A stretch of 64,000 bases of DNA from positions 3,884 through 67,883 of the forward strand of contig JACPAV010000025.1 in NCBI GenBank assembly GCA_016180645.1, in the 5' to 3' direction. The position numbers and the translations under genes were made by a program. Each line of letters opens with the position of its first letter. Within the stretch, counting starts at the first letter, position 1. The notes beneath the pieces were generated by a model. That model made no database searches, was not told the origin of the DNA, and saw only the letters and a program-made list of their open reading frames with translations. Shown here one piece after another: positions 9,556 through 64,000 of the stretch. Source of the stretch: Nitrospirota bacterium (lineage in GTDB: Bacteria; JACPQY01).

Positions 9556-9568
9556 CGGAAGATTCTCT

Positions 9569-12184: not shown

Positions 12185-12200
12185 ACCGAAGCCGTTTCTT

Positions 12201-12956: not shown

Positions 12957-13062
12957 CAGAAACCACACGTAGCAATCCGTTTCAGGCGCATCCACCATGC
13001 TGATACGGTTGCTGACGCAAATCGCTCTACTCGCGAGTCCAATGCAGTTGTGGGGCTGGGGC

Positions 13063-13912: not shown

Positions 13913-13973
13913 GTGTGCATGATTTCGCCTCTATAACGGGGTGCCGTGGCATGGACTTGCGAGAAGAGGGGGC

Positions 13974-35684: not shown

Positions 35685-37220
35685 GTGGAAGAAGGAGAAA
35701 GGGGCAAGACGGGTGGCGACGCGGGATCGATGCCGGGATCCTATGATTCTTCTCCTCATCGTCTCCGGAGAGAAGCGGAGGGGGCGCCGGTCGGTTCGGG
35801 AGCGGAGGATGGAACCGAGATTAGCGGGTCGTGCGCTGTCGGAGAGAGCAACCCGGGACCTGCGTCGGTGGCGGCGCAGGATCCCCATAACTATTCCCAT
35901 CGCCGTCCCCGGAGCAACGCAGAGTGGACGGAAAGAATGGACCTCACACTGAAAACCCACGGGCTTTCACGCCGGCAGGCGGTCGTGGGCGCAGGTCTTG
36001 TGCTGGCGGCCCTTATGGCGATCATCACGGCCGGGCGGGCAACCGGAGAGGCGCCGCCACTGGACGTTCTGAAGGAGGGCGTCGTAGGCGGTGCCGAGGC
36101 GCAGCCTACGGGGAAGGCTGTCCAAGCCGCGGTGAATTTGCCGCCCGTGCTGGGCGGCGCGGAGGGAATTGAGGGAGAGACGCCGGCGAAGCCGGAGGAG
36201 GATCCGGTAGCACGGTGGCGAGCGATGGGCGCCGAGGCTGAAGCGGCGGGAGGCGAGCAGAGGGCGGTAGTAAGAGCCGGAAGTGGGTTCGACTCCGCTC
36301 AGAATGCGGATGCGCTGATCAACCGGGAGAAAATGAAGGATATGGAGCGACGCCTTGAGGAGTCGGAGGAGTCGAGGCACCAGCTGGAACTCTCCCTCAT
36401 GAAGGAGATCGCCGAGCTGAAGAACAAGGCGGAGGGTGGGCGATCCATCACAACCATTTCAGGGAGCGGCGGGGCGTCCGGTTCGGAAGGCCACGCAGGC
36501 CACGAGGGCATGGCGGAGGCGCGACCGGTCGGGAGAGGGAAAATTATTGTGAACCCGAGCGCGGGCGCGGCTTCGGACGAGAGCGGCGTGTACTTTCCGA
36601 GCGGAAGTTTCGCGGCAGGCGTGCTGCTGACGGGTGCGCTCGCCCCGGATACGGATCAGCAGCTGCCGTACCCGCTGCTCGTGCGTCTGCAGGGTTCGTT
36701 CGTGGGACCGAACCGATTCAAGATTCCGGCGCACGGGTGTTTCGCGCTGGGGCGGGCGAGCGGCCGGGCGGTGGCGAGGCGCGCGGAGATCCAGGTGTTT
36801 CAGATGAGCTGCGTCTATGAGGACGGGACGTCGATGGACCGCAAGATCAACGGCTGGGTGTCGGGCGAAGACGGCATCCTGGGGGTGCCGGGTATTGTGG
36901 AGAACCATGACGGCCTGTACATCGCGGGGACGATTGCCGCCCGGACCGCGCAGGCGTTTTCGCAGGCGATTGCGGCGTCGCAGCTGACGACGCAGCTCAC
37001 GCCGCTGGGCGGCGCTCAGCAGAAGGTGGACGGAAGTCTCGTGTCTTACGGGTTTTCGAGCGCGGGCGCGGGTTTCTTCGACTCGCTCGCAAAGATTATG
37101 GAAGAAAGGATCCGTCGCAACGTTCCGGTCATCAGAGTGGAACCGGGAAAGGAGATTCATGTCGTACTGGCTCAAGGTTTCGAGGGGATGCCCCCCGATC
37201 TGGCTCTTCCTGTGCACTAG
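35685..37220 (+). CDS. traB: TraB-like (VirB10-type) conjugation protein
   Basis: 511 residues from a GTG with a good Shine-Dalgarno (AGGAAGGAAA). A membrane helix (VVGAGLVLAALMAIITAG) is followed by a coiled coil (EKMKDMERRLEESEESRHQL) and the TraB/VirB10 beta domain: YFPSGSFAAGVLLTGALAP, FKIPAHGCFALGRASG, INGWVSGEDGILGVPGIV. TraB spans both membranes in the T4SS channel. Before the helix two reverse R1 copies are translated in frame, so the cytoplasmic tail is repeat-derived; the ATG at 35937 is an alternative start that avoids them. The next gene starts 62 bases before its stop. Confidence 0.85.
   Translation: MEEGERGKTGGDAGSMPGSYDSSPHRLRREAEGAPVGSGAEDGTEISGSCAVGESNPGPASVAAQDPHNYSHRRPRSNAEWTERMDLTLKTHGLSRRQAVVGAGLVLAALMAIITAGRATGEAPPLDVLKEGVVGGAEAQPTGKAVQAAVNLPPVLGGAEGIEGETPAKPEEDPVARWRAMGAEAEAAGGEQRAVVRAGSGFDSAQNADALINREKMKDMERRLEESEESRHQLELSLMKEIAELKNKAEGGRSITTISGSGGASGSEGHAGHEGMAEARPVGRGKIIVNPSAGAASDESGVYFPSGSFAAGVLLTGALAPDTDQQLPYPLLVRLQGSFVGPNRFKIPAHGCFALGRASGRAVARRAEIQVFQMSCVYEDGTSMDRKINGWVSGEDGILGVPGIVENHDGLYIAGTIAARTAQAFSQAIAASQLTTQLTPLGGAQQKVDGSLVSYGFSSAGAGFFDSLAKIMEERIRRNVPVIRVEPGKEIHVVLAQGFEGMPPDLALPVH
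35736..35788 (-). repeat. R1 repeat, reverse, in TraB-like N-terminus
   Basis: The minus strand reads GCCCCCTCCGCTTCTCTCCG then GAGACGATGAGGAGAAGAAT and CATAGGATCC. The plus-strand gene translates it as SYDSSPHRLRREAEGAP. Confidence 0.75.
35871..35926 (-). repeat. R1 repeat, reverse, second copy in TraB-like N-terminus
   Basis: The minus strand reads CCACTCTGCGTTGCTCCGGG then GACGGCGATGGGAATAGTTA and TGGGGATCCTGCG, matching the 842 subtype. It is translated in the gene as PHNYSHRRPRSNAEW. Confidence 0.75.
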
Positions 37221-37608: not shown

Positions 37609-37676
37609 GAGGTGAAGGCAAAGGTGAGAAGGCAAAAGTGGGCGAGGGAGAAAGCGAGAATATCAACGTGCAGGAC

Positions 37677-40600
37677 ATGAAGAATCTGAAGAAACGGAAG
37701 GGCGCTTGGGCAGGCTCACGACCTCATAAGGCGCTGAGTCAATCGAAGGGAGCGCAACCGAGCGGCGCCAGGACGGCACAGCCGTCCGGCCCTGCCTGCC
37801 GCGACGCCTCCGCGTCCTGCGGCGCAGGCAGGGACTCGCTGGACGCGACGAAGCGGGGCGTTCCCGTCTTGAGTTTCCTCCTGGCCGCGGCGGCGCTCTG
37901 CGGGACGGCGGCGTGCGCCCCGCCGGAGCCGGCGACGTACATCATCTATATCGAGGCGGAGAAGTCGCTCACGTCGGCGGTGGAGAGATTTGCGCCGGTG
38001 GCACGGATCGACCGGGGGGAGAGCGTGCTGGACGACGGCGTACCGGTGGGCTTCCAGATCGGCGAGGACGGCGCGTCGTATGTGTCGCTGGGATTCGAAG
38101 GTCGGCTTGGGAATGCGGAGGACCCGGTCACTCTGACGCTCCATGACCGGAGAGTGGATCTCATCGGCGTGAAGCTCATGCGGGCCAGGAACAGTGAGGG
38201 GGTCCTGACGCGGGACGGCGAGGCGACGGCGTTTCCCGATTCGGACGAGGACGGCGTGGAAAATCTCATCGAGGCGTATCTGGGGACGGATCCCTTCTCG
38301 AAAGGGCAAAGGCCGCCCGAGGACCAGGCGCAAAAGATTGCGGAGGATGTCTTTCCGGAACTGGCTTCTCAGCGAAAGGCGCGTAGCACCGGGAATACGG
38401 GAGGGGCTGGGGCCGGCGACCCCGGTGCGGGGGTCGATACGAAAATCACGACAAAACCTTCGAAGCCCGTGTCATCGGATGCCGTAACAATTCGGTTCAT
38501 CGCGGTGGGGAAGGCGGAGGGGGCGAGGTTGGAATGTTCGGTGGACGACGGTGCGTTTGGGGAGTGTGTCTCGCCGCTGACGCTTACGGGCCTCGCGGAA
38601 GGGCCGCACCGGTTGCGGGTCAGGGCGGTCGCCGGCGACGGCGAGGTGGATGCGACGCCGGCGGAGGCCGTCGTCGTCGTGGACCGCACGCCACCCGCGA
38701 CGAAAATCACGGGGACCCCATCGGGCGTGAAGAACGAGGGGAAAGTGTCTCTCCAGTTTGAGTCGACGGAGGCGGGGAGCGCATTCCTGTGTTCCGTGGA
38801 TCAGAGCCCGGTGCAGGCGTGTTCGCCCGGTCAGGGAGTTTCAGTCGGATCGGACGGCCGCCACACCATTCGGGTCTTCGCCATGGATGCCGCGGGAAAC
38901 CGGGATCCTGTAGGAGCGGAGGCGGTTGTGGATGTGGATCTGACGCCGCCGACGGTAAAGTGGCTTGCCGCGCCGGCCGCCGTGACGAACCGCACGGAGG
39001 TAACGGTGACGGCTGCCGCGGAGGACCGCGCGGGAGTCGCTGTGATCGAGTGCGCGGTGCGCGGTGCTGCCGAGAAGGATCAGTCGCCCCCTCCGCTGCG
39101 CTCCACGGACGACGAGATGAAGAATCATGGGGTCTTTACGTCGCCCCGGTGGGAGGCCTGCGGGTCGGGCATGATGGTCCGGGGACTGGCGGAGGGCGCC
39201 TTCGTGGCCATGACCCGGGCGAAGGATCGGGCGGGAAACGTGAGTGCCGTTCTCGAAACAGCTTTCATCGTGGACCTCACGGCGCCGGCCGTTCGCATCA
39301 AGGAGGGGCCGGCCGAGGTCAGCGCGATGAAGCAGGTGTCGTTCGTCCTGGAAGGCTCGGAGGATGTAGAGACCTTCCGCTGCGGAATGGACGAAGAGTG
39401 GTCGGCCTGCGGGGGTACCTGGAGCGTGCCGAGCGTGCCGGAGGGGCGCCACTTGGCGCAGGCCGAGGGCGTCGACAAGGCGGGTAACGTGGGCCGAAGC
39501 GAGGCGTACGCCTTTACGATCGATCGATCGCCGCCGGAGATCCGGGTCGTGTCCGGGCCGGTGGATGGGACCAACCAGTCGTCGGTTGTCTTTCGGATGG
39601 GGATTACAGATGCGCTTTCGGGTGGGGCAAGGCTCGAGTGTTCCGCGGACGGCGGGGCGTTCAGCGATTGCCTGGAAAAGGGCGTGACGTTTTCAAGCCT
39701 GACGACCGGAGCGCACGTGCTCGCCGTGAGGGCGGCGGATGGAGCGGGGAATGCGGCGGCAAGCAAATTTACGTTTGTTGTGGACCGGACGGCGCCGACG
39801 GTGACGGCCTCCGTGGCGGCCGGCTGGCTCAAGTCGCCGGGGGCGGTGATGTTCTCGGCGGCCGACGACAGCGGCGTCGCCCCGGCGGTCGACTACTGTT
39901 TCGCTCTGGGGGCAGGGTCCTGTGTGCCGTCGGTTCGCGCGGTCGATGGAGTGGGAGAGATAAGCTGCGAGGCCGGGGCGATCTGCGAGGGAAACGTGCA
40001 TTTCACGGCGGTGGACCGGGCGGGGAACCGCTCGGAGGTTGTGCGCGTAAGCGTCAAGGTGGATGCGCAGGGGCCTATGATCGGGGGGGATGTCGCGTTC
40101 ACGATGATGGGGACGCGAGGCGCGAGTCTGAGCGCGCGATTCGATGACGCGGGTGTAGGCGAAGTGAAAGACTGTCTTCTTGAGTTTGCGGACTCCGCGG
40201 GCGTGACGAGTCAAACGAAAGCGGCGGTGGGTGGAGTGTGTTCGGTCTCGCGCGCATGCGAAAGAAAAGGACCACTCGTCTTGGGTGTCGTGGCGCTCGA
40301 TGCGGTAGGGAACGGATCGGCCCTGGTGGAAAGGACGATGACCTGCGATTCGGCGCCGCCCGCGACAAGTATTACGTTTGGGCCGGACGTGAAGGAGTCC
40401 CCCGGGAGGTTCATCGACGGCGGGCCCGGGTTCACGACGAGACGCTACCCGTTCGCGGTGACGGACGGGGACGGTGTGGGGCCACGGGAGGTGCGCTACT
40501 GGGTGACGGGCATGAGCGGGGAGGCGAGCTGCTTGTGGACGAGCCCGGGAGGCTGCGGTTTCGAGGTTGCGTGTTTGGGTTCGGTTTGCCTCGGAACGGT

Positions 40601-42029
40601 CCGGTTCTACTCGGTCGACCAGTTCGGGAATGAAGAGGCGCTGAAGGCGGTGGCTTATACCATCGATCGAAAGGGCCCGGTGTTCGCTTTCGTGGCCGAC
40701 GGAGAACTGTACGGACGAGACGCGGCCGTTCTGTCTTCGAAAGGGGTGACGCTGCGCGCGTGCGGGAACTTCTATGCCAGCGACACGACGACCACGGTCG
40801 CGCGGTACGAGGCGGGTCTGTCACAGGGGGTGAGCGGCTGCGGGAGGTCCGACGTGTCGTTCGCGGGGATCTCGCCGTCCGACGCGCTTCGCCCGGCGGG
40901 ATGCGTTTCAATGGCCGGTCGTCCGGCGAACAACCGGTACTGTTTCACGGTCAAGGCATACGACGAGTTTGGAAACGTCGGGTGTGCGTCGTCGTGCGAC
41001 AGGGAGGCCGGGGTGTACTTTTTCGACAATGGAGGACTGGGCCTGTTTTCGCCGGCGGAGGTCGTCGTGCAGAACCGGAGCGACGGGGCGAGTGTGATCA
41101 GTATCGGCGGACCCGACAAAGTTGTCCGGTATAGCCCGCTCGCCGGCGGTTTCGAAAAGGTGACCGACCTGGCGCCGGTTGCGGCCGGTCCGGAGGCCGT
41201 TCGGATGGGCATCTTGGACGACGGCTGCGTACAGACGTTCTACGAGACTCCGCTTCCCACGGAGGTGAGGGTTGTAGGCTGCCCGTCAATGGAAGAGGGA
41301 GTGCTCTCGGGGGCTGAGGCGCTCCTCGGAACGTCGAAGGGATCGTTTTGGGTCACAACGGGGGCCAATGCGCTCATAGGATTCGGCACATGGGATCCGG
41401 CGAAGGCCGTCGCCGTAAGCATGACGGATGTCCTGCCGCTACCGAAGGAGGGACTCACGCGCGCCCTGGCCTCGACGTCGTCGAGTTCGACGGCGCATGT
41501 AAAGTGGGTGGCCACGGGGGCGAGAAGCTCATCGCCAGGATCGGCTTTCTCCATTCGAAGAATCGTCCATCCGTCCCATGAGATTTCAATTCTTGATGCG
41601 TCGGCTCTCTCGGACGGCCAGAATACGTATGCGCTCGAGGGCATCGCGCTGGTCGTTGTCGAGGAGGCGGGCGAATCCCTCGTGATCGCGCAGGGTGTTC
41701 GGCAGACGAATTCGGGCTTCGTCCGGAAATTGTTCTACGGTTTTACGACTCCGGCTGGAACGGTTGCGATGAGGATACTGGGGGACGGGGCATCGGGTTT
41801 TCCGGTTGCGGCTGTCTTGCCAGGCGTGTGCAGCGACGCGAAGAGGATCGTCGTGGGAGTCGGCTCTGGGCTGATCCGCGGAAAACTGGACCTCGGGACG
41901 CGAGCGATTACGGGCATCGAGACCAGCCAGTATCCGGGATGGGTGTTCCAGTCGCTTGGGGCCGACATGGAATGCCAAGTGTACGGCACCGTAATTGCGG
42001 ATGGGGCACGATATGTCGTGACACCGTAA
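37677..42029 (+). CDS. second giant Ig-like repeat lipoprotein
   Basis: 1,450 residues from the ATG at 37677. A basic leader is interrupted by an R3-like insert before the signal VLSFLLAAAALCGTAAC. Residues ~185-200 hold a calcium-type motif (SDEDGVENLIEAYLGTDP). Then come six or more Ig-like modules of ~90 residues with the pattern LECSVDDGAFGEC...LAEGPHRLRVRA, ending in DRTPPAT-like linkers. The final ~450 residues differ. An R1 copy splits the third module. It is paralogous in plan to the lipoprotein at 13974. Coupled to the T4SS operon, it may act as a surface adhesin for mating, which is inference. Confidence 0.8.
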   Translation: MKNLKKRKGAWAGSRPHKALSQSKGAQPSGARTAQPSGPACRDASASCGAGRDSLDATKRGVPVLSFLLAAAALCGTAACAPPEPATYIIYIEAEKSLTSAVERFAPVARIDRGESVLDDGVPVGFQIGEDGASYVSLGFEGRLGNAEDPVTLTLHDRRVDLIGVKLMRARNSEGVLTRDGEATAFPDSDEDGVENLIEAYLGTDPFSKGQRPPEDQAQKIAEDVFPELASQRKARSTGNTGGAGAGDPGAGVDTKITTKPSKPVSSDAVTIRFIAVGKAEGARLECSVDDGAFGECVSPLTLTGLAEGPHRLRVRAVAGDGEVDATPAEAVVVVDRTPPATKITGTPSGVKNEGKVSLQFESTEAGSAFLCSVDQSPVQACSPGQGVSVGSDGRHTIRVFAMDAAGNRDPVGAEAVVDVDLTPPTVKWLAAPAAVTNRTEVTVTAAAEDRAGVAVIECAVRGAAEKDQSPPPLRSTDDEMKNHGVFTSPRWEACGSGMMVRGLAEGAFVAMTRAKDRAGNVSAVLETAFIVDLTAPAVRIKEGPAEVSAMKQVSFVLEGSEDVETFRCGMDEEWSACGGTWSVPSVPEGRHLAQAEGVDKAGNVGRSEAYAFTIDRSPPEIRVVSGPVDGTNQSSVVFRMGITDALSGGARLECSADGGAFSDCLEKGVTFSSLTTGAHVLAVRAADGAGNAAASKFTFVVDRTAPTVTASVAAGWLKSPGAVMFSAADDSGVAPAVDYCFALGAGSCVPSVRAVDGVGEISCEAGAICEGNVHFTAVDRAGNRSEVVRVSVKVDAQGPMIGGDVAFTMMGTRGASLSARFDDAGVGEVKDCLLEFADSAGVTSQTKAAVGGVCSVSRACERKGPLVLGVVALDAVGNGSALVERTMTCDSAPPATSITFGPDVKESPGRFIDGGPGFTTRRYPFAVTDGDGVGPREVRYWVTGMSGEASCLWTSPGGCGFEVACLGSVCLGTVRFYSVDQFGNEEALKAVAYTIDRKGPVFAFVADGELYGRDAAVLSSKGVTLRACGNFYASDTTTTVARYEAGLSQGVSGCGRSDVSFAGISPSDALRPAGCVSMAGRPANNRYCFTVKAYDEFGNVGCASSCDREAGVYFFDNGGLGLFSPAEVVVQNRSDGASVISIGGPDKVVRYSPLAGGFEKVTDLAPVAAGPEAVRMGILDDGCVQTFYETPLPTEVRVVGCPSMEEGVLSGAEALLGTSKGSFWVTTGANALIGFGTWDPAKAVAVSMTDVLPLPKEGLTRALASTSSSSTAHVKWVATGARSSSPGSAFSIRRIVHPSHEISILDASALSDGQNTYALEGIALVVVEEAGESLVIAQGVRQTNSGFVRKLFYGFTTPAGTVAMRILGDGASGFPVAAVLPGVCSDAKRIVVGVGSGLIRGKLDLGTRAITGIETSQYPGWVFQSLGADMECQVYGTVIADGARYVVTP
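37767..37826 (-). repeat. R3-related repeat, reverse, in lipoprotein leader
   Basis: The minus strand contains CGCAGGACGCGGAGGCGTCG and GGGCCGGACGGC, similar to R3 at 19330 and 21700. It is translated as ARTAQPSGPACRDASASCGA and lies between the start codon and the signal peptide. Confidence 0.5.
39085..39143 (+). repeat. R1 repeat splitting an Ig-like module
   Basis: CCCCCTCCGCTGCGCTCCAC then GGACGACGAGATGAAGAATC and ATGGGGTCTTTACGTCG, read as SPPPLRSTDDEMKNHGVFTS. The Ig module reads IECAVRGA before it and WEACGSGMMVRGLAEGAF after it; sister modules have these parts joined. Confidence 0.9.
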
Positions 42030-56889: not shown

Positions 56890-58344
56890 TCAGGCGTGCC
56901 GCTCTTCCACCTTCTCCACGAAGGCGAGAACTCTCGCGGCGAGTTCCCGGCCCCTGTGGACAGCGGCCTCGAACGCCCGGAGTTCCTCTCCACGCCCCTC
57001 GACGGCCGGATCCCCTCTCCACGCGTCCAGAAGGCGGCAGTACGCCAGGAGGGACTGGTTGTTCTGGGACCACCCCGAACGAATCCGACCGCAGACAACC
57101 GGATGGAGCGACCCTCTCAGGCGCGCGGCCTCCTCGATGATCCCGGCGAAGAAAACGGCGTTATCGAGCCAAGTCCCGACTTTTTCGCGAAGCTTCGGGA
57201 ACTCATCGGAGGAGGGAACAAGCGGATTGCCGTACCGGTCGGTCGGAGGCAGATCGAGCAGCTCGGGCCCGCTCCCGTCCAAACCGGGCTCGCCGAAAAC
57301 CTGCCTGCGAATCCGGTTCACCGCGCCGATGATTTCCTTCAGGAAAGGCGACGGCGCAAAATCGGTCTCCTTGAGGTCTCCCGTCTGGAGGGCTTCGGCG
57401 ACAAGAGACATAATCTGAAGCTGGAGCGCTTCGTGCTCCCGGAGCATCTCCTCGCGTTCATGTTCGGGTAAGGTATGAGCCACGCGGCGCGCCGCGGACT
57501 CGCCTCCCGAGACCTGAGCCGCCTGAACTTGCTTGAAGACCGATCCCCATCTCTCCTCGAAGACCTGGCGCCGCGCCATGAAGCTCACCCACCGAGGGTC
57601 ACCCCAGTCAACCTGTCCGCGTCGCTCCGGACGGGGGCCGACGTAGTTGCCTTCCTTGTCGCGCCAGAGGGGCCAGTGAGGAACGAGTCGACGGTCCCGG
57701 AACTCTTTGTCCCTGATATAGCGCATGTAGAAAACGCTGCCGATCGCGCGACCAAGCTCCCGATACCCCTTGAACAGATGGGGGAACTCCACCGGCAGGC
57801 GTTCGAACGCCTTCGAGGCCGGCAGCCGATAGGTGAGAACGGAGGCGGCGATCCGACACATCTCGTCCCAATGCTCCTCGAAGTGCTTCTTCTTCACTAC
57901 GCCTCCGAAACATTTCTGCGCCTTGGGCGGCAGCTTCTGGCCGGGCATGGAGTAGAGCTTGAAGGTGCTCCCCGGGGAGAGGAAGAGATGGAGCTCGAAG
58001 CCCATCAGGTGCATGAAACCGAACGCGCAGTCGATCACTTCGCTCCTCGGTATCCCGGGCGGCCATCCCCGGACGGCGTCGCCCCCGCCCAGTTCGTAGT
58101 CCACGGGCATGGCCGCGACGATTTCCTCTTCCTCGTTCCGAGGGAGCTTCGCGAGCGTCGTCCCCTGGCTTTCCGCGCGGTTCTTGAACCCGTCAATCAA
58201 TCTGAAGGCGATAGGGATCTCGGACTCGTGCGCGACGAAGATTTTCGGGATGGAAGTGAGCTTCTCCTCCAACGATCCTCCGACTCCGCTTTCGTAGCAC
58301 TTGACCCGCCGCGCGTCAACGGCATCCACCCACGGGTGTTGCAC
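56890..58344 (-). CDS. paralog of the SEC-C protein, motif absent
   Basis: 484 residues. IDCAFGFMHLMGFELHLFLS and FEEHWDEMCRIAASVL align with VDLAFGLTEMLSFRLKLVMK and ESWDDMARVLASV of the protein at 52205, so the two are paralogs. The zinc SEC-C motif seen there is missing here; this copy has CFGGVVKKKHF instead. It precedes the tRNA array. Function unknown. Confidence 0.65.
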   Translation of the reverse strand: MQHPWVDAVDARRVKCYESGVGGSLEEKLTSIPKIFVAHESEIPIAFRLIDGFKNRAESQGTTLAKLPRNEEEEIVAAMPVDYELGGGDAVRGWPPGIPRSEVIDCAFGFMHLMGFELHLFLSPGSTFKLYSMPGQKLPPKAQKCFGGVVKKKHFEEHWDEMCRIAASVLTYRLPASKAFERLPVEFPHLFKGYRELGRAIGSVFYMRYIRDKEFRDRRLVPHWPLWRDKEGNYVGPRPERRGQVDWGDPRWVSFMARRQVFEERWGSVFKQVQAAQVSGGESAARRVAHTLPEHEREEMLREHEALQLQIMSLVAEALQTGDLKETDFAPSPFLKEIIGAVNRIRRQVFGEPGLDGSGPELLDLPPTDRYGNPLVPSSDEFPKLREKVGTWLDNAVFFAGIIEEAARLRGSLHPVVCGRIRSGWSQNNQSLLAYCRLLDAWRGDPAVEGRGEELRAFEAAVHRGRELAARVLAFVEKVEERHA

Positions 58345-58462: not shown

Positions 58463-58536
58463 CGGTCCCGGCCGGACTTGAACCGGCTTTCTCCGCCTTG
58501 ACGGGGCGGCGTCTCGACTGCTTCGACTTCGGGACC
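58463..58536 (-). tRNA. tRNA-Asp(GTC)
   Basis: Minus-strand cloverleaf with acceptor GGTCCCG/CGGGACC, anticodon loop CCGTCAA, T-loop TTCAAGT (canonical) and G73, as expected for Asp. Confidence 0.9.
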
Positions 58537-58539
58537 CTC

Positions 58540-58578
58540 GCTCCTGCCCGGATTGGAACCGAGGTCTACGGCAGGAGC
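58540..58578 (-). ncRNA. 39-nt minimal tRNA-like element (acceptor plus T-arm only)
   Basis: Acceptor GCTCCTG/CAGGAGC is joined through CCGTAGAC to a T-arm (CTCGG, TTCCAAT, CCGGG). D and anticodon arms are absent. It is either a deletion remnant or a functional minihelix. Confidence 0.5.
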
Positions 58579-58588
58579 CTGGAAACTG

Positions 58589-58660
58589 TGGCCCGTGCGA
58601 GAGTCGCACTCGCTTCACCGGATTGAAAGTCCAGTATCCTAACTCGTAGACGAACGGGCC
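58589..58660 (-). tRNA. tRNA-Glu(TTC)
   Basis: Acceptor GGCCCGT/ACGGGCC, anticodon loop CTTTCAA. The T-loop is TGCGACT, with G at position 55. Confidence 0.9.
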
Positions 58661-58661
58661 G

Positions 58662-58734
58662 TGGCTCGAAAAGGATTCGCACCTTTGCCTGCGCCTTATG
58701 AGAGCGCCGTGCCTGCTGATTACACCATCGAGCC
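58662..58734 (-). tRNA. tRNA-Met or tRNA-Ile2 (CAT), elongator type
   Basis: Acceptor GGCTCGA/TCGAGCC is fully paired, anticodon loop CTCATAA, T-loop TGCGAAT. Methionine elongator is more likely because a separate Ile(TAT) gene exists in the array. Confidence 0.85.
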
Positions 58735-58736
58735 TC

Positions 58737-58811
58737 TGGTAGCGGGTCCAGGATTTGCACCTGGGATCTCGTGGTTATGAGCCACGCGAGATACTACTTC
58801 TCCAACCCGCG
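58737..58811 (-). tRNA. tRNA-fMet-like (CAT), CCA encoded
   Basis: CGCGGGT...ACCCGCT leaves position 1 and 72 unpaired (C-U), an initiator hallmark. Anticodon loop CTCATAA; stem CGTGG/CCACG lacks the full GGG run; T-loop TGCAAAT. Confidence 0.8.
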
Positions 58812-58849
58812 ATCAGGAGCTCGACTATTGAAAGTAGTGTGGTAGGTTA

Positions 58850-58874
58850 TCGCTCGCGCATTCGCGGGCGATCT
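58850..58874. other. hairpin between tRNA genes
   Basis: ATCGCTCGCG, CATT, CGCGGGCGAT: a ten-base stem with one G-T pair, between the fMet-like and Cys tRNA genes; possible processing or termination signal. Confidence 0.4.
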
Positions 58875-58901
58875 TCGTAGAAGGATTCCGCGCCCATCCG
58901 G

Positions 58902-58972
58902 ACACGGCTGCGGGAGTTGCACCCGCCTGATGTGGGTTGCAGCCACACGCCTACCTGCTCGGCCAAGCCGTG
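58902..58972 (-). tRNA. tRNA-Cys(GCA)
   Basis: Acceptor CACGGCT/AGCCGTG with T73 (Cys identity base), anticodon loop CTGCAAC, T-loop TGCAACT. Confidence 0.88.
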
Positions 58973-59036
58973 CGCGGATAAACGCGGACTACAGTCCGTC
59001 TCGAAAGAAATCGTTACAGCCATCGTGTGATCTCCG

Positions 59037-59109
59037 CTGGGGAGGTGGGTCTCGATCCCACAACTTCCTGATTAACAGTCAGGCCCGTTGCCGATTGCGG
59101 TACTCCCCA
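59037..59109 (-). tRNA. tRNA-Asn(GTT)
   Basis: Acceptor TGGGGAG/CTCCCCA with G73, anticodon loop CTGTTAA, T-loop ATCGAGA (A54). Confidence 0.88.
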
Positions 59110-59201
59110 GCGCAGACCACGCGCCAGAGAGTTCCTATTGCCCGGACCCAGTTTCTTCATGCCCATCATGGTACTCCTTTCGTCATTCTCTCGTCAAACT
59201 T

Positions 59202-59273
59202 CAGGGAAGCAGGGACTCGAACCCTGGTCTGCGCTTTTGGAGAGCGCATGATTGGCCGCCATCTTCCTCCCCT
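59202..59273 (-). tRNA. tRNA-Trp(CCA)
   Basis: Acceptor AGGGGAG/CTTCCCT with G73, anticodon loop CTCCAAA, canonical T-loop TTCGAGT. Confidence 0.88.
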
Positions 59274-59275
59274 GT

Positions 59276-59347
59276 TCGGCGCGGGAAGGTACGATCTTCC
59301 GTCTGTCGGTTATAAGCCGACTGCTCTCCCTATTGAGCTACACGCCG
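59276..59347 (-). tRNA. tRNA-Ile(TAT)
   Basis: Acceptor CGGCGTG/CGCGCCG, anticodon loop CTTATAA giving TAT, rare in bacteria. T-loop ATCGTAC lacks both T54 and A58. Confidence 0.82.
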
Positions 59348-59354
59348 TAACCTT

Positions 59355-59440
59355 CGGAAGGTGAGGGAATTGAACCCCCGCCGGACGTGCCGGGATCGGT
59401 TAGCAACCGATTGCGACAAACCGACATTCGCCTACCTTCC
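59355..59440 (-). tRNA. tRNA-Ser(GCT)
   Basis: Type II tRNA with long variable arm, acceptor GGAAGGT/ACCTTCC, G73, anticodon loop TTGCTAA, canonical T-loop TTCAATT. Confidence 0.9.
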
Positions 59441-59444
59441 AAGC

Positions 59445-59519
59445 TGGAGCCTCCGGCCAGTATTGATCTGGCTTCTCCGCGTTACGAGTGCGGTGCATCA
59501 CCTTTTATGCTTCAGAGGC
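59445..59519 (-). tRNA. tRNA-Thr(CGT), CCA encoded
   Basis: Acceptor GCCTCTG/CGGAGGC, T73 then CCA in DNA, anticodon loop CTCGTAA, T-loop ATCAATA. Confidence 0.85.
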
Positions 59520-59522
59520 ACG

Positions 59523-59594
59523 AGCCGCCGGAGGGCGTCGATCCCTCTTTTCCTGGGTACAGGCCAGGCGTCTTTCCATCTCGACCTCAGCGGC
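59523..59594 (-). tRNA. tRNA-Thr(TGT)
   Basis: Acceptor GCCGCTG/CGGCGGC, T73, anticodon loop CCTGTAC, T-loop ATCGACG. Confidence 0.85.
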
Positions 59595-59601
59595 AGAACT
59601 T

Positions 59602-59672
59602 TGCGGGAGCGGGGACTTGATCCCCGGCTTCAGGCTTGGAAGGCCCGCTTGCTTCCACTACAACACTCCCGC
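59602..59672 (-). tRNA. tRNA-Gly(TCC)
   Basis: Acceptor GCGGGAG/CTCCCGC, anticodon loop CTTCCAA, T-loop ATCAAGT. Confidence 0.88.
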
Positions 59673-59679
59673 TCATGTT

Positions 59680-59748
59680 TGCGCGGGGCCGGCCTCGATC
59701 CGGCATGGACCTGTGTGTAGGACAGGCGGCTCTCCATTCACCCCGCAC
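59680..59748 (-). tRNA. tRNA-Val(TAC)
   Basis: Acceptor GTGCGGG/CCCGCGC, A73, anticodon loop CCTACAC, T-loop ATCGAGG. Its 5' acceptor strand is part of a 15-bp inverted repeat with 59837-59851. Confidence 0.85.
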
Positions 59749-59851
59749 CAATCCCGAAACAAGCGTGTTGATGTTGAAAACACGAAAGGCGAAGCCGCCT
59801 TCGGCTACAAATCAACACCTGTGCAGACGCAAACACAGGATTGGTGCGGGG
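59740..59851. other. structured inter-tRNA element with nested inverted repeats
   Basis: ACCCCGCACCAATCC (59740-59754) is repeated in inverse at the right end (GGATTGGTGCGGGGT). Inside are GTGTTGAT/ATCAACAC and AAGGCG/CGCCTT hairpins. It overlaps the start of tRNA-Val(TAC). Confidence 0.6.
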
Positions 59852-59873
59852 TTCGCCTACCCGCGCTTCAAAT

Positions 59874-59945
59874 TTGCGGAGTGCGGGCTTCGATCCCCAC
59901 CCTTCCGCATACCAAACGGACGCACATCCAACCGTGCTCTAGCGG
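59874..59945 (-). tRNA. tRNA-Thr(GGT)-like, probably defective
   Basis: The anticodon arm TCCGT/GCGGA with loop TTGGTAT gives GGT and the D-arm is good (GCAC/GTGC), but the acceptor strands (GCCGCTA and ACTCCGC) pair at only about three positions and the T-loop has an extra base. Limits are approximate. Confidence 0.5.
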
Positions 59946-59953
59946 CGAAACTT

Positions 59954-60040
59954 CGGAGAGGGTGGGATTCGGACCCACGTCCGCCGGTCGGCGGATTCGG
60001 TTTTCAGGACCGATGCCTTCAACCACTCGGCCACCTCTCC
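59954..60040 (-). tRNA. tRNA-Ser(TGA)
   Basis: Type II, acceptor GGAGAGG/CCTCTCC, G73, anticodon loop CCTGAAA, T-loop TCCGAAT (C55). Confidence 0.9.
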
Positions 60041-60048
60041 CAACTTGG

Positions 60049-60137
60049 CGGTAGCGGGAGGGGTCGAACCTCCAGTCCACGTCTTCACGGGACGCCGCCT
60101 TTCCACGACGGCGGTTTCACCATTCACCCACGCTACC
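60049..60137 (-). tRNA. tRNA-Ser(GGA)
   Basis: Type II, acceptor GGTAGCG/CGCTACC, G73, anticodon loop GTGGAAA, canonical T-loop TTCGACC. Confidence 0.88.
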
Positions 60138-60144
60138 AAACGGA

Positions 60145-60229
60145 CGGAGGGTGCTGGATTCGGACCAGCGGACCCTTTCGGGCCTCCCGCTTTCGAGGCG
60201 GGTGGATTCAACCGCTCTCCCAACCCTCC
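60145..60229 (-). tRNA. tRNA-Ser(CGA)
   Basis: Type II, acceptor GGAGGGT/ACCCTCC, G73, anticodon loop CTCGAAA, T-loop TCCGAAT. Confidence 0.9.
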
Positions 60230-60234
60230 AAATT

Positions 60235-60318
60235 TGCGGCTGGCTGGAGTTGCACCAGCATGGGTGTTACCCCACAAGCCTCTCAAGCCTGCTCGTCTGC
60301 TTGTTCCGACACAGCCGC
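60235..60318 (-). tRNA. tRNA-Leu(GAG)
   Basis: Type II, acceptor GCGGCTG/CAGCCGC, A73, anticodon loop TTGAGAG, T-loop TGCAACT. Confidence 0.9.
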
Positions 60319-60324
60319 GTATTC

Positions 60325-60408
60325 TGGCCCCGCCAGGATTCGCACCTGGACGGCCTTCTCGGCCGGCGGGTCTTAAATCCGCCGCGTCTGCTGTTTCGCC
60401 ACGGGGCC
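60325..60408 (-). tRNA. tRNA-Leu(TAA)
   Basis: Type II, acceptor GGCCCCG/CGGGGCC, A73, anticodon loop TTTAAGA, T-loop TGCGAAT. Confidence 0.9.
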
Positions 60409-60438
60409 TCCGTCTCATTGTCAAAGAACAACCACATT

Positions 60439-60522
60439 TGCGCCGGGAAGGACTTGCACCTTCACGCCCTTTCGGACCACGGCTTCTGAGACCGTGACGG
60501 CTGCTGTTTACGTCACCGGCGC
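60439..60522 (-). tRNA. tRNA-Leu(CAG)
   Basis: Type II, acceptor GCGCCGG/CCGGCGC, A73, anticodon loop CTCAGAA, T-loop TGCAAGT. Confidence 0.9.
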
Positions 60523-60528
60523 GTCATT

Positions 60529-60609
60529 TACCGGAGGTGGGACTTGGACCCACACGCCTTTCGGCACGAGCTTCTAAGGCTCGCGCGTCTGCCGTTCCGC
60601 CACTCCGGT
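60529..60609 (-). tRNA. tRNA-Leu(TAG)
   Basis: Type II, acceptor ACCGGAG/CTCCGGT, A73, anticodon loop CTTAGAA, T-loop TCCAAGT. Confidence 0.9.
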
Positions 60610-60617
60610 ATCAAACT

Positions 60618-60699
60618 TGCCCCTGGAAGGATTTGCACCTTCACGCCTTTCGACAGCGGATCTTGAGGCCGCCTCGTCTGCTGATTCCGACACAGGGGC
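60618..60699 (-). tRNA. tRNA-Leu(CAA)
   Basis: Type II, acceptor GCCCCTG/CAGGGGC, A73, anticodon loop CTCAAGA, T-loop TGCAAAT. Confidence 0.9.
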
Positions 60700-61147
60700 G
60701 CTTCGATAGTCCCTGAAATCATTGGCGTCCGCTTCCCGGAATTTCCGGAGCAGCGAATCGTACCGCCTCACCATGTCCATGATCTCGTCGTTCACAGCGT
60801 CTTTCCCTTCACTTTCAATTTCAAATTCCTCTTCATGAGCCGGTGAATCGTTCCCCCGGCTACTCCCGCCCGTGGAGAGGCGACCCACCCACCATGCTTT
60901 GCCGCCCGCTCCAGGGCGGCTTCTCTATTCCGTATCCACATGTTTCCCGGCTTTCCCGTCATCTCAACCTCGTCAAAACAAAAAGACAGACCAAGATGGC
61001 AATTGTCAGGGCCACGGCTGCTTTCCTTTCGGGTTTCTTTGGATCAGCTCGTCGTAACCCTTAGAGGGTTGACGTACCGAGCGATCCTGTGGACAGCGTG
61101 GCGCCTAATATCAAGCACCACACCAATAGACTGAACAAGAACCGCAC
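60700..61147. other. gap in tRNA array, no secure gene
   Basis: A minus-strand frame starting at a GTG (60795, MNDEIMDMVRRYDSLLRKFR) looks protein-like but runs through tRNA-Leu(CAA) and into tRNA-Leu(TAG), so it is either a truncated gene or chance. A hairpin (CGCCC/GGGCG) lies near 60900. Confidence 0.35.
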
Positions 61148-61220
61148 TGGCCACCCCTGGGATCGAACCAAGCTCTCCCGCTTTTCAGGCGGGCGCAGCG
61201 ACCACGTTTGCTTGGTGGCC
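61148..61220 (-). tRNA. tRNA-Phe(GAA)
   Basis: Acceptor GGCCACC/GGTGGCC, A73, anticodon loop CTGAAAA, canonical T-loop TTCGATC. Confidence 0.9.
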
Positions 61221-61307
61221 AGTTCGATTCCCGTAAAGAAGGGCTCAGTGTTCTTGTTCATGCTGATCTTTTCTTTGTACTCGCCTCCTGCGTTTTTGTC
61301 AAGATCG

Positions 61308-61511
61308 CATGGCGAACACACCGGAGACTTGGGGACCGACGTGGCCGCGCTGAGCCAGGGCCTCGATTTCAACGGAAACAAACGCGGCATAGCCCTTGAG
61401 GTCGTTCGGATGAGCGACGTCGAGGCGGCCTACATCCTGTTCAGTCGGTCCGACGCGAGGACAACGGGTTGCTCAGGGCTGGTCGGTTCGGGCAACATCA
61501 TCGACCTTTGA
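61308..61511 (+). pseudogene. fragment of lipoprotein gene inside tRNA array
   Basis: The frame reads HTGDLGTDVAALSQGLDFNG, then VEAAYILFSRSDARTTGCSG, LVGSGNIIDL and stops. It matches residues ~97-165 of the lipoprotein at 55201 (NMGDLGTHVAALTQGTDFDG ... GVAGSGNIINF). Both ends are missing, so it is a degraded partial copy 5.8 kb away. Confidence 0.75.
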
Positions 61512-61649
61512 CCCCGAAACCCCGACACGGTGGCCACCACTCACATACATGCAAACTTACAACATCTATCTTCCCACTGCCCCTATTATCGAATTTTTCA
61601 CGAAAACGCGGAAAAGGCCAATACATAGCTTGGGAGCGTGAAAGATCAA

Positions 61650-62450
61650 TCAGGCGTGAGCGGTGGCCTCGGTCCAGCCGAGAAGGTAGGTGATCCGCGG
61701 CCGGCCGATCCCTGGGGAGAGCCGCCCGATCTCGAACCGGTAACCGTTGCCGTCGGTCAGCCCCTCGGTCAGACGCTCCAGTTGCCTAGGGGTAAAGACT
61801 CTCATGCACGATACAACCCCGTCCCACATGGTAAAGAACGGCAGCACCGGAACCAGATAGGTCAAGAGCAGGCGCTGCAATTTAGGCGGCCGGATCAGCG
61901 GGGCGGACAGAAGGACGCCTATCGGGACAAACCCAATCGCCGGCAGCGCCATGCGCTGTTCAACGACCTCGAAAATGCCGATCGGAGCGCCGGACTCGAC
62001 CGCATCGCGCAGGATCGCCCGCGCCACCGGCGACGGCATGTGGTGAAATGCATTGAAGATCGTTCGCACTCCCTTAAGGTCGTGCGGGACCGCCGCCGCG
62101 TCGACCGGGGTTGAAATGAATTCGATTCTTCCCCCCGACTCCTGCGCCGCCCGGTGGAAAGCCCCGGTGTTGGGGTACTTGTCGGTCAACGTGATCCTGA
62201 CCGGATATCCCGCTTTGCGAAAAAGACTTTCCATTCTTACTTGCGGCCCGCTTCCGCCCGACCCCATGTCGATGATCCGTTCCGTGTCGTGCGCGCGCAA
62301 CCACTCGACCATCTTCGGTACGATCGGATCGAACGCGTGCGACACCTCGTTTAGGTAGCGCAAGCAGTCGGTCATGTAGTCGCGCCACTGCACCGGAAAC
62401 CACTGGAAATCCTCAAACTCGAACAGATAGTCGCGCAACATGGGCGGCAT
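61650..62450 (-). CDS. class I SAM-dependent methyltransferase-like protein
   Basis: 266 residues. ERIIDMGSGGSGPQVRMESL is a SAM-binding motif I, followed by an acidic residue at the end of strand 2 (ITLTDKYPNTG) and IFNAFHHMPSPVARAILRDA. The hydrophobic region PAIGFVPIGVLLSAPLIRPP and LLLTYLVPVLPFF may touch the membrane, so a lipid or small-molecule substrate is possible. It interrupts the tRNA array in the same orientation. No closer family recognised. Confidence 0.72.
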   Translation of the reverse strand: MPPMLRDYLFEFEDFQWFPVQWRDYMTDCLRYLNEVSHAFDPIVPKMVEWLRAHDTERIIDMGSGGSGPQVRMESLFRKAGYPVRITLTDKYPNTGAFHRAAQESGGRIEFISTPVDAAAVPHDLKGVRTIFNAFHHMPSPVARAILRDAVESGAPIGIFEVVEQRMALPAIGFVPIGVLLSAPLIRPPKLQRLLLTYLVPVLPFFTMWDGVVSCMRVFTPRQLERLTEGLTDGNGYRFEIGRLSPGIGRPRITYLLGWTEATAHA

Positions 62451-62616
62451 TCGTTAGCCCACCCCTTTCCGCTCTGCTGCCGCAACAACCCTCCCCGCCC
62501 CAGCCAACAGGCCCAGCAGCCCGAAGGTGGTCCATGAGTTTGGGAGGGAGTCGAGTCTCATCGGCCCATCCTATCACTTCCCTGCGCCCCCCTTCCCACA
62601 GGGCCTCCCCTTTCTC

Positions 62617-62814
62617 TCACCGTTCTTCTCTTTTTCCTCCCCCCCCGCCCCGCGCGCGCGGGGAAAAAGAGGGAGCGGTGGGGGGAACCAGACCCTTGTG
62701 GGAATGCTGGGCCGACAGCACGCTCAGGAAAAGGCCCTCGATCCGTTGGTGCGCCTGGCGCCGGGCCTCGCGGACGAGATCCTCCAGGACCGTCTCGCCC
62801 GGCTCGACGTTCAT
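62617..62814 (-). CDS. possible small hypothetical protein
   Basis: 65 residues beginning MNVEPGETVLEDLVREARRQ. The helical first half looks coding; the tail (PRARGGGGGKREER) reads low-complexity DNA. No clear Shine-Dalgarno. Confidence 0.35.
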   Translation of the reverse strand: MNVEPGETVLEDLVREARRQAHQRIEGLFLSVLSAQHSHKGLVPPTAPSFSPRARGGGGGKREER

Positions 62815-62848
62815 CTTACAATCGAAGGAGACCGATCCGTGTGACGAC

Positions 62849-62867
62849 CCTCCCGCCCATGGCGGGA
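62849..62867. terminator. hairpin upstream of tRNA block
   Basis: CTCCCGCC, CAT, GGCGGGAG: eight perfect base pairs just after the second tRNA block on the minus strand. No T-tract. Confidence 0.45.
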
Positions 62868-62921
62868 GACTGTCACGGGGATAGAGGCGTGTCAACGCAC
62901 GAGAGGGTGCGTGGCGAATCG

Positions 62922-62996
62922 TGCCCTTGGAGGGATTTGAACCCTCTGCCTTCCGGTTCGGAACCGGAGATGCAAATCCAGTTACACCTCAAGGGC
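62922..62996 (-). tRNA. tRNA-Arg(CCG)
   Basis: Acceptor GCCCTTG/CAAGGGC, A73, anticodon loop TTCCGAA, canonical T-loop TTCAAAT. Confidence 0.9.
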
Positions 62997-63002
62997 CAAA
63001 CT

Positions 63003-63073
63003 TGGGACCGGAGCGAGTCGGACGCTCGTATCCGCGATGTCACCACGGCGCTCTGCCGTTGAGCTACGGTCCC
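63003..63073 (-). tRNA. tRNA-Val(GAC)
   Basis: Acceptor GGGACCG/CGGTCCC, A73, anticodon loop GTGACAT, T-loop TCCGACT. Confidence 0.88.
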
Positions 63074-63074
63074 G

Positions 63075-63145
63075 TGGAGCCGCAGGGAATCGCACCCTGA
63101 TTTCATCCATGCCGAGGATGTGTCCTCCTATTGAACGACGGTCCC
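63075..63145 (-). tRNA. tRNA-Ala(GGC)
   Basis: Acceptor GGGACCG/CGGCTCC carries the G3-U70 alanine identity pair and one A-C mismatch. Anticodon loop TCGGCAT, T-loop TGCGATT. Confidence 0.88.
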
Positions 63146-63151
63146 AAACTT

Positions 63152-63226
63152 TGCCCCAGGTAGGACTCGAACCTACACGTTGCCCCGCTCGTAACGGGGT
63201 GGCCTCTCCAATTGACCGACTGGGGC
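63152..63226 (-). tRNA. tRNA-Arg(ACG)
   Basis: Acceptor GCCCCAG/CTGGGGC, A73, anticodon loop TTACGAG (ACG, presumably edited to inosine), canonical T-loop TTCGAGT. Confidence 0.9.
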
Positions 63227-63236
63227 TCGAACTGGG

Positions 63237-63310
63237 GGTGACTGACCGGACTTGAACCGGCTACTGTGAGGGCCACAACCTCACGCCTATCCTCTTCGGC
63301 TTCAGCCACC
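63237..63310 (-). tRNA. tRNA-His(GTG)
   Basis: Acceptor GTGGCTG/CAGTCAC with extra G-1 opposite C73, the histidine signature. Anticodon loop TTGTGGC, canonical T-loop TTCAAGT. Confidence 0.9.
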
Positions 63311-63317
63311 ATAGATT

Positions 63318-63389
63318 TCTGGGCGCTGCGAAGTCGAACCCAGTCCACGGCGTTCCCGACACCGGATGCAGCCTCTACACCACGCCCAG
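63318..63389 (-). tRNA. tRNA-Pro(GGG)
   Basis: Acceptor CTGGGCG/CGCCCAG, A73, anticodon loop TCGGGAA. The T-arm (CTGGG TTCGACTT CGCAG) has one extra loop base and a mismatch, so function is less sure. Confidence 0.75.
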
Positions 63390-63396
63390 TCCAACT

Positions 63397-63467
63397 TCTG
63401 GGAGCTTGGGATTGAACCAAGTCCACATCGTTCCGAACGATGGAGGCGACCTCTACCCCACTCCCAG
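63397..63467 (-). tRNA. tRNA-Pro(CGG)
   Basis: Acceptor CTGGGAG/CTCCCAG, A73, anticodon loop TTCGGAA, canonical T-loop TTCAATC. Confidence 0.9.
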
Positions 63468-63473
63468 TCGAAT

Positions 63474-63544
63474 TCAGGGTGCCTGGAATTGAACCAGGTC
63501 CACATCGTTCCAGGCGATGGATGCGACCACTACACCACACCCTG
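63474..63544 (-). tRNA. tRNA-Pro(TGG)
   Basis: Acceptor CAGGGTG/CACCCTG, A73, anticodon loop CCTGGAA, canonical T-loop TTCAATT. Confidence 0.9.
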
Positions 63545-63546
63545 GG

Positions 63547-63619
63547 TGCGCCCGGTAGGACTTGCACCTACACTCTCAGCCTTATCAAGACTGCGCTTCA
63601 CTGTTTAAGCTACAGGCGC
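63547..63619 (-). tRNA. tRNA-Ile(GAT)
   Basis: Acceptor GCGCCTG/CGGGCGC, A73, anticodon loop TTGATAA, T-loop TGCAAGT. Confidence 0.9.
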
Positions 63620-63625
63620 GAAATG

Positions 63626-63698
63626 TGGGGCCGGTGGGCTTCGATCCCACGTCTTCCGCTTAAAAGGCGGATCGTGCTCCCGACTCACCTACGGCCCC
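63626..63698 (-). tRNA. tRNA-Lys(TTT)
   Basis: Acceptor GGGGCCG/CGGCCCC, A73, anticodon loop CTTTTAA, T-loop ATCGAAG. Confidence 0.9.
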
Positions 63699-63747
63699 GT
63701 TCTTTTGTCGTCCTCTCCTTTCATCGGACGCTCCTTTCAAACATGGG

Positions 63748-63818
63748 TGGAGCCACGGAGATTTGAACTCCGATCTCAGCGGTGCGGACGCCGCATCCTC
63801 CCATTGGACGATGGCCCC
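63748..63818 (-). tRNA. tRNA-Ala(CGC)
   Basis: Acceptor GGGGCCA/TGGCTCC with the G3-U70 pair, A73, anticodon loop TCCGCAC, canonical T-loop TTCAAAT. Confidence 0.88.
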
Positions 63819-63827
63819 AATACATTT

Positions 63828-63900
63828 TGGGTCCGGTGGGACTTGCACCCACAGCTTCCGGTTTAAGAGACCGGCACTCTGTCTGTTGAGTTACGGACCC
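63828..63900 (-). tRNA. tRNA-Lys(CTT)
   Basis: Acceptor GGGTCCG/CGGACCC, A73, anticodon loop CTCTTAA, T-loop TGCAAGT. The array may continue beyond the window edge. Confidence 0.9.
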
Positions 63901-64000
63901 GTGATGACAAAACACCTGCGCAAGCATCTTTCTGGTAAGGGTTGGAGTTCTGGAAAGACCCTTGCGCTTACCGTGCCGCTGGACGCGGGACGGCGATGCG

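Follow-up and report, generated by a model that had tools for sequence, protein, structure and literature searches.

The stretch analyzed here, a 64,000-nucleotide window from the genome of a Nitrospirota bacterium (G000:C25:3884-67883), reaches the end of a contig of 67,883 bp (C25), in a genome assembly of 4.7 Mb and 65 contigs that is 97% complete. The last 5.4 kb of the window are filled by an array of around 35 tRNA genes, all on the minus strand (58463-63900; Table 1), and two thirds of these tRNAs lack the near-universal combination of U54-U55 with G18 at the elbow of the molecule.

tRNA genes of the array and of the host chromosome

The number of array genes recovered depended on the program. 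Thirty tRNAs within 58-64 kb were above the Rfam gathering score in Infernal and 26 were reported by ARAGORN, whereas a scanner indifferent to the T-loop parsed 32 at a threshold of 17.5 (none in a tRNA-free 30 kb of the window at this value; 4 false positives per 1.18 Mb of shuffled DNA at 18.5). The T-loops of these 32 tRNAs were T54T55C56 (11), T54G55C56 (11), A54T55C56 (6), and T54C55C56 (4), so that 21 were non-canonical (A54, C55, or G55) by the strict parse. Three unparsed genes with weak or degenerate stems, Val-TAC, a third Thr, and a third Pro, were visible by eye and raise the non-canonical T-loops to 23 out of 35. An earlier note, made from the letters of this DNA alone, had counted 11 tRNAs with G55, 4 with C55, 8 with A54, and 12 canonical ones, which holds when the three weak genes are included, and the covariance scoring that it proposed supports the 30 Infernal genes; the extent it had given, 58589-63900, began at tRNA-Glu and left out tRNA-Asp at 58463-58536. 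Genes for Tyr and Gln were not found in the array.

The acceptor, D, anticodon, and T stems of the array tRNAs were paired, with C56, the G53-C61 pair, and R37 present. Gene density was that of mobile tRNA arrays, the 5.4 kb holding 32 parsed genes, to which a sister array on contig C59 adds 30. In the two arrays C56, G53-C61, R57, R37, and G19 were conserved at 97-100%, and the tRNAs thus look built to fold and decode, whereas U8 (75-80%) and U33 (67-81%) were less conserved than on the chromosome. C33 took the place of U33 in 19-41% of the tRNAs of several arrays (window 58463-63900 and survey loci L068, L077, L099, and L102), and in some arrays of this same set roughly one tRNA in five had lost U8, mostly to A8.

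All 44 tRNAs parsed on the host chromosome carried T54, T55, C56, G18, and G19, and they cover a broad set of anticodons to which the array is an addition. A check for modification enzymes, also proposed in the earlier note, found that the host genome encodes both TruB and TrmFO. Since the host tRNAs are canonical and the enzymes for pseudouridine 55 (Psi55) and T54 are present, the array is an exception inside one genome, and missing host modification enzymes were ruled out as the cause. TruB and TrmFO require uridine at their target position, and the variant tRNAs would consequently be without Psi55 or T54 in the cell, as the note had anticipated.

The array lies in mobile surroundings. Contig C25, which carries a TrbI-type conjugation protein, Tn3-type transposases, restriction-modification genes, and AbiE, is probably plasmid-like or similar to an integrative and conjugative element (ICE), as judged from TrbI; integrases, AbiE, and HEPN-MNT genes were found on C59. 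No relaxase or complete transfer set was seen among these genes.

Compensated tertiary pairs and the sister array

Changes at position 55 were accompanied by changes at position 18. Across the C25 and C59 arrays A18 and G55 occurred together in 17 tRNAs, each without the other in a single tRNA, and neither in 43 (17 of 18 each way; Fisher p = 4e-13, approximate because tRNAs were treated as independent although the two arrays are related). Those with C55 and nearly all with A54 or TTC retained G18, the exceptions in the two arrays being Asp (A18 or C18 with U55) and Leu-TAA of C59 (G18 with G55). The rule used to align the D-loop preferred G18 wherever possible and was therefore biased against the A18-G55 result. 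Positions 54 and 55 were never both changed in one tRNA of these arrays (0/13/25/24 for both, 54 only, 55 only, and neither; p = 0.0008, with the same approximation).

Because T54, Psi55, C56, and the D-loop residues that they contact hardly ever vary, their tertiary pairs can scarcely be tested by covariation; mobile arrays constitute a natural experiment in which 18-55, 54-58, and 19-56 all covary. Among 1,654 unique tRNAs, from loci selected on 18-55 and not on the other two pairs, combinations at 54-58 were U-A (1508), A-U (39), G-G (24), C-A (24), and A-A (21), and at 19-56 U56 appeared with A19 in 10 of 11 cases, A56 with U19 in 6 of 7, and G56 with C19 or U19 in 6 of 6. The A-U version of 19-56 (U56 with A19) was seen at L383:807-877, L383:3176-3246, and L107:9897 (Stenotrophomonas phage DLP_6 and a Pseudarthrobacter plasmid). 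Covariation, together with framework positions at 97-100%, ruled out simple decay, and the comparison of sequences gives good support to an elbow that has been rebuilt. The earlier note had likewise spoken of an altered elbow and against simple decay, and both views were borne out by the three covarying pairs and by the persistence of most variants in two diverged arrays; the compensating A18 and the wide spread of the trait are additions to it.

The sister array, on a contig of 25.8 kb, comprises 30 parsed tRNAs in an order similar to that of the C25 array, the best kilobase being approximately 79% identical. The last 99 bp of the two contigs are the same and mark an assembly fork, and their joining is not fixed by the assembly. 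The T-loop class was the same in 18 of 23 orthologue comparisons, some of these same-class pairs being nearly identical and hence little informative; Thr-CGT kept A54 across 25 differences and Ser-TGA kept C55 across 16. The class had switched in five orthologue pairs, and in two of them (Ile-GAT and Ala-GGC) positions 18 and 55 had changed together, A18-G55 standing against G18-U55. One tRNA of the sister array has the anticodon TTA and would decode UAA, a stop codon (C59 23835-23910; L012:3835-3910).

An RNA ligase of the T4 Rnl1 type, a family known for tRNA repair, is encoded 3 kb from the C59 array (PF09511, 2.8e-15; PDB match to T4 RNA ligase 1). The regions 10884-13519 and 17262-21467 of C59 hold this ligase gene along with a HEPN-MNT pair, an AbiE pair, an integrase, and a Fic/Doc gene that ends about 130 bp from the array.

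Distribution of the A18-G55 elbow

The rewired elbow was found in mobile DNA and, a few Leu tRNA genes excepted, was not seen in the ordinary bacterial chromosomes scanned. A Leu pattern with A18 and G55 matched 17 IMG/VR and 20 GTDB contigs. In these loci, with the Leu-pattern tRNAs excluded, 18/55 was A/G in 198 tRNAs, G/U in 142, G/C in 9, A/U in 2, and G/G in 2. Nearly all isotypes were A18-G55 in some loci (17/18 tRNAs in L228, 25/27 in L102, 37/40 in L098, and 21/23 in L078; further converted loci were L068, 20/22, L192, 16/18, and L067, 15/17), the share reaching 94% of tRNAs in arrays of viral contigs and of some contigs from metagenome-assembled genomes. The corresponding class-I pattern with A18 and G55 was present in at least 120 viral stretches of IMG/VR, as compared to 14 with G18 and G55 and 72 with A18 and U55. 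In the viral loci, once the tRNAs by which class-I loci were found had been excluded, 18/55 was G/U in 724 tRNAs, A/G in 124, G/C in 12, A/U in 5, and G/G in 5. The viral status of most loci is taken from IMG/VR's own labels; a phage portal protein was found in one converted locus, L273.

In contrast, none of 386 diverse genomes matched the class-I A18-G55 pattern, a lower bound because this pattern also misses the arrays of the present genome, whereas its canonical counterpart gave 423 matches in 41 of the 386 genomes (about 10 per genome). A DNA search of 40 other genomes for homologous arrays returned ordinary tRNA matches only. Canonical tRNAs predominated in plasmid arrays of Arthrobacter, Pseudarthrobacter, and Curtobacterium and in several named phages, with a few A54, G54-G58, or U56 variants and one A18-G55 Phe; isolated phages found by similarity presented A54 and U56 variants and no A18-G55. 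The Leu genes excepted above are chromosomal tRNA-Leu(CAG) genes that carry A18-G55 and lie adjacent to RNase J in three genomes of the candidate phyla radiation (CPR), one of Nealsonbacteria and two of Staskawiczbacteria (L085:6534-6615, L088:6091-6172, and L100:2368-2449), and they suggest that this elbow may serve in a housekeeping tRNA.

Two apparent regularities did not stand. Initiator tRNAs stayed canonical in highly converted arrays (5/5), but this is not a rule, as 17 A18-G55 initiators occurred in other loci; and Ro60-like genes near converted arrays are not a specific feature, phage Karp having one alongside canonical tRNAs. Some A18-G55 tRNAs with a Leu body and long variable arm bore anticodons that do not fit Leu (GTC, AGG, and TGG; L083:2-86, L092:2939-3024, L097:2771-2861, and L079:1911-2001).

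Possible causes of the altered elbow

The explanation we favor, with about an even chance of being correct, is that the array is a mobile accessory tRNA set with its elbow rewired to escape reading or cutting of T54-Psi55 by some factor of the host or of a rival. Support for the rewiring itself is good, and a T-loop nuclease may be its driver. According to this model, a plasmid- or ICE-like element would carry an accessory set in which two thirds of the tRNAs have the elbow re-encoded, G18-Psi55 having become A18-G55 or G18-C55, or U54 having become A. The T-loop framework that is kept (C56, G53-C61, R57, A58, and G19) would retain the L fold and decoding, while each of the three changes would remove the T54-Psi55 dinucleotide and let the tRNA fold without this step. 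A host or rival factor, such as a tRNase, would then read or cut T54-Psi55, and the tRNAs of the element, probably expressed and charged, would survive when canonical host tRNAs were destroyed.

We favor escape because of the loss of T54-Psi55 shared by the variants, the Rnl1-type ligase near the C59 array, and three reported systems. The tRNase CdiA-CT of strain E479 is reported to cleave the T-loop at the T-Psi step (PMC9086364), precisely the one that array tRNAs have lost; the positions changed coincide with the reported cut site, although this nuclease is an attacker and not part of this element. For phage tRNAs, changes in the anticodon loop have been put forward as a means of evading anticodon nucleases (van den Berg et al. 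2023, PMC10264068). As in the present case, mobile tRNAs would be altered where defences cut; that paper, however, concerns the anticodon loop and makes no mention of T-arm or elbow, whereas the array tRNAs are changed at the elbow and compensated in the D-loop. Translation stress induces the tRNA array of Anabaena, whose repressor controls the repair ligase RtcB as well (PMC10272220). The evasion of tRNA-cutting defences suggested in the earlier note may thus be at work, with circumstantial support from a tRNase cut at T54-Psi55 and from the ligase 3 kb from the sister array.

Several points weigh against escape. No T-loop nuclease was seen in or around the host (no homologue of CdiA-CT E479 was sought); a third of the array is canonical, so that protection would be partial; and some mobile arrays are canonical. 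In several arrays U8, U33, and D-loop uridines drift too, which a T54-Psi55 reader would not explain, and positions 54 and 55 change together in other arrays (AGC, CGC, and GGC loops), their mutual exclusion being local to this genome. Expression and charging of the array tRNAs are, moreover, presumed.

The main rival, which we consider rather unlikely, is modification independence: mobile tRNAs would fold without the host enzymes that modify uridines (TruB, TrmFO, ThiI, and Dus), for instance as bulk tRNA or in a new host, and A18-G55 would replace a pair that leans on Psi55. Most of the depleted uridines (U8, D-loop U, U47, U54, and U55) are established modification sites, and the compensated pairing at 18-55 points in the same direction. 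Nevertheless, U55 persists in A54 tRNAs and G18 in C55 tRNAs, where no gain in stability is evident, and U54-A58 folds even when unmodified. Both TruB and TrmFO are, besides, encoded in the host genome, and U33, not a usual modification site, drifts as well.

Relaxed selection, in which the chromosome covers decoding and accessory tRNAs drift until second-site changes partly restore folding, appears less probable still. It would account for the lower conservation of U8 and U33, for the few degenerate genes in the array, and for a chromosomal set that looks full; however, drift should not bring nearly all isotypes to A18-G55, as in L098 and L102, nor retain the same variant across 16-25 other differences between C25 and C59, nor leave C56, G53-C61, and R57 at 97-100%.

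Very little probability was assigned to non-translational tRNAs that avoid EF-Tu and feed another pathway, as does staphylococcal cell-wall tRNA-Gly. Three tRNA-Gly isoacceptors of S. aureus probably have a TGC T-loop. These three, with UU or CU at 18-19, are thought to be weak EF-Tu binders (PMC4052509), and they are likewise natural bacterial tRNAs with a changed elbow; they differ in that G18-G19 is lost altogether, in a single chromosomal isotype with a cell-wall role. The arrays, by contrast, span at least 18 amino acids and keep G19 and C56, and a chromosomal Leu tRNA of CPR genomes shares their elbow. A DNA-level escape, in which changes in the T-arm, a common integration site, shield the array from integrases and A18 is a repair at the RNA level, is marginally weaker again: the elements do carry integrases, but most of these enzymes would tolerate one or two altered bases in a site, and A54, C55, and G55 solutions within one array fit an RNA-level target better. 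An artefact of assembly, sequencing, or alignment, conceivable for a 65-contig draft, was refuted by recurrence of the pattern in independent IMG/VR and GTDB records, with a D-loop rule that favoured G18 and the few false tRNAs in shuffled DNA also speaking against it.

Mobile tRNA array units described in Mycobacterium (PMC5966550), in linear plasmids of M. avium (PMC12803027), and as the Anabaena trn operon (PMC10272220) present the same dense clusters for most amino acids, on plasmids or phages and beside a full chromosomal set, and an anti-defence or translation-stress role has been proposed for them. These reports do not mention T-loops, and the actinobacterial plasmid arrays scanned here were mostly canonical. 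No natural counterpart of an altered elbow across whole tRNA sets was found in the open-licence literature searched, and an earlier report of A18-G55 may exist outside it. Suppressor tRNAs selected in vivo by the Steinberg group reportedly have altered D/T loops with non-standard 54-58 combinations such as G54-G58, as do mobile arrays, the difference being their laboratory selection.

More tentatively than escape in this array, and with the balance tilted against it, a second self-consistent elbow, built on A18-G55 and on other combinations at 54-58 and 19-56, might be a general counter-defence of mobile elements across many hosts, which would imply widespread, largely uncatalogued host or rival enzymes recognising T54-Psi55. 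If active, A18-G55 tRNAs would provide a natural alternative to the "universal" elbow, useful for orthogonal tRNA design. They also offer a testable answer to why mobile elements carry whole tRNA sets, namely that these sets may differ where host or rival enzymes grip tRNA.

Elsewhere in the window, a ResIII helicase, an N6/N4 DNA methylase, and Hypoth_Ymh follow in a row at 4986-12956 and may constitute a restriction system. Very large open reading frames (1789, 1059, and 1511 aa), two of them with FG-GAP or Ig-like repeats, occupy 13941-22480 and 37494-42029, and kelch/MopE proteins are encoded at 27-32 kb.

Table 1. Features of the window, with tRNA identities, states of T-loop and position 18, and supporting evidence.
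Feature	Position	Strand	Evidence
tRNA-Asp(GTC), TTC T-loop, A18 (exception A18-U55)	58463..58536	-	Infernal/Rfam, parse
tRNA-Glu(TTC), G55 + A18	58588..58660	-	tRNA scans, parse
tRNA with CAT anticodon (elongator Met or Ile2), G55 + A18	58661..58734	-	tRNA scans, parse
tRNA with CAT anticodon, initiator-like (1-72 unpaired), G55 + A18	58737..58811	-	tRNA scans, parse
tRNA-Cys(GCA), G55 + A18	58900..58972	-	tRNA scans, parse
tRNA-Asn(GTT), A54, G18	59036..59109	-	tRNA scans, parse
tRNA-Trp(CCA), canonical TTC	59201..59274	-	tRNA scans, parse
tRNA-Ile(TAT), A54, G18	59276..59347	-	tRNA scans, parse
tRNA-Ser(GCT), canonical TTC	59354..59441	-	tRNA scans, parse
tRNA-Thr(CGT), A54, G18	59448..59519	-	Infernal/Rfam, parse
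tRNA-Thr(TGT), A54, G18	59523..59594	-	Infernal/Rfam, parse
tRNA-Gly(TCC), A54, G18	59602..59672	-	tRNA scans, parse
tRNA-Val(TAC)-like, A54 T-loop, odd D-arm, no clean parse	59679..59750	-	sequence reading
Degenerate Thr(GGT)-like tRNA, A54 T-loop, weak stems, no parse	59870..59947	-	sequence reading
tRNA-Ser(TGA), C55, G18	59954..60040	-	tRNA scans, parse
tRNA-Ser(GGA), canonical TTC	60046..60137	-	tRNA scans, parse
tRNA-Ser(CGA), C55, G18	60142..60230	-	tRNA scans, parse
tRNA-Leu(GAG), G55 + A18	60235..60318	-	tRNA scans, parse
tRNA-Leu(TAA), G55 + A18	60325..60408	-	tRNA scans, parse
tRNA-Leu(CAG), G55 + A18	60439..60522	-	tRNA scans, parse
tRNA-Leu(TAG), C55, G18	60528..60610	-	tRNA scans, parse
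tRNA-Leu(CAA), G55 + A18	60618..60699	-	Infernal/Rfam, parse
tRNA-Phe(GAA), canonical TTC	61147..61221	-	tRNA scans, parse
tRNA-Arg(CCG), canonical TTC	62922..62996	-	Infernal/Rfam, parse
tRNA-Val(GAC), C55, G18	63003..63073	-	tRNA scans, parse
tRNA-Ala(GGC), G55 + A18	63075..63145	-	Infernal/Rfam, parse
tRNA-Arg(ACG), canonical TTC	63152..63226	-	tRNA scans, parse
tRNA-His(GTG), canonical TTC	63233..63310	-	tRNA scans, parse
Degenerate Pro-like tRNA, TTC T-loop, T-stem broken, no parse	63319..63391	-	sequence reading
tRNA-Pro(CGG), canonical TTC	63397..63467	-	tRNA scans, parse
tRNA-Pro(TGG), canonical TTC	63474..63544	-	tRNA scans, parse
tRNA-Ile(GAT), G55 + A18 (sister array: G18 + U55)	63545..63619	-	tRNA scans, parse
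tRNA-Lys(TTT), A54, G18	63625..63698	-	tRNA scans, parse
tRNA-Ala(CGC), canonical TTC	63744..63819	-	tRNA scans, parse
tRNA-Lys(CTT), G55 + A18	63828..63900	-	tRNA scans, parse
99 bp identical to end of contig C59 (assembly fork behind both arrays)	63902..64000		
Tn3-type transposase fragment (DDE), adjoins array	56890..58344	-	PF01526
TrbI-type conjugation protein	35685..37220	+	PF03743

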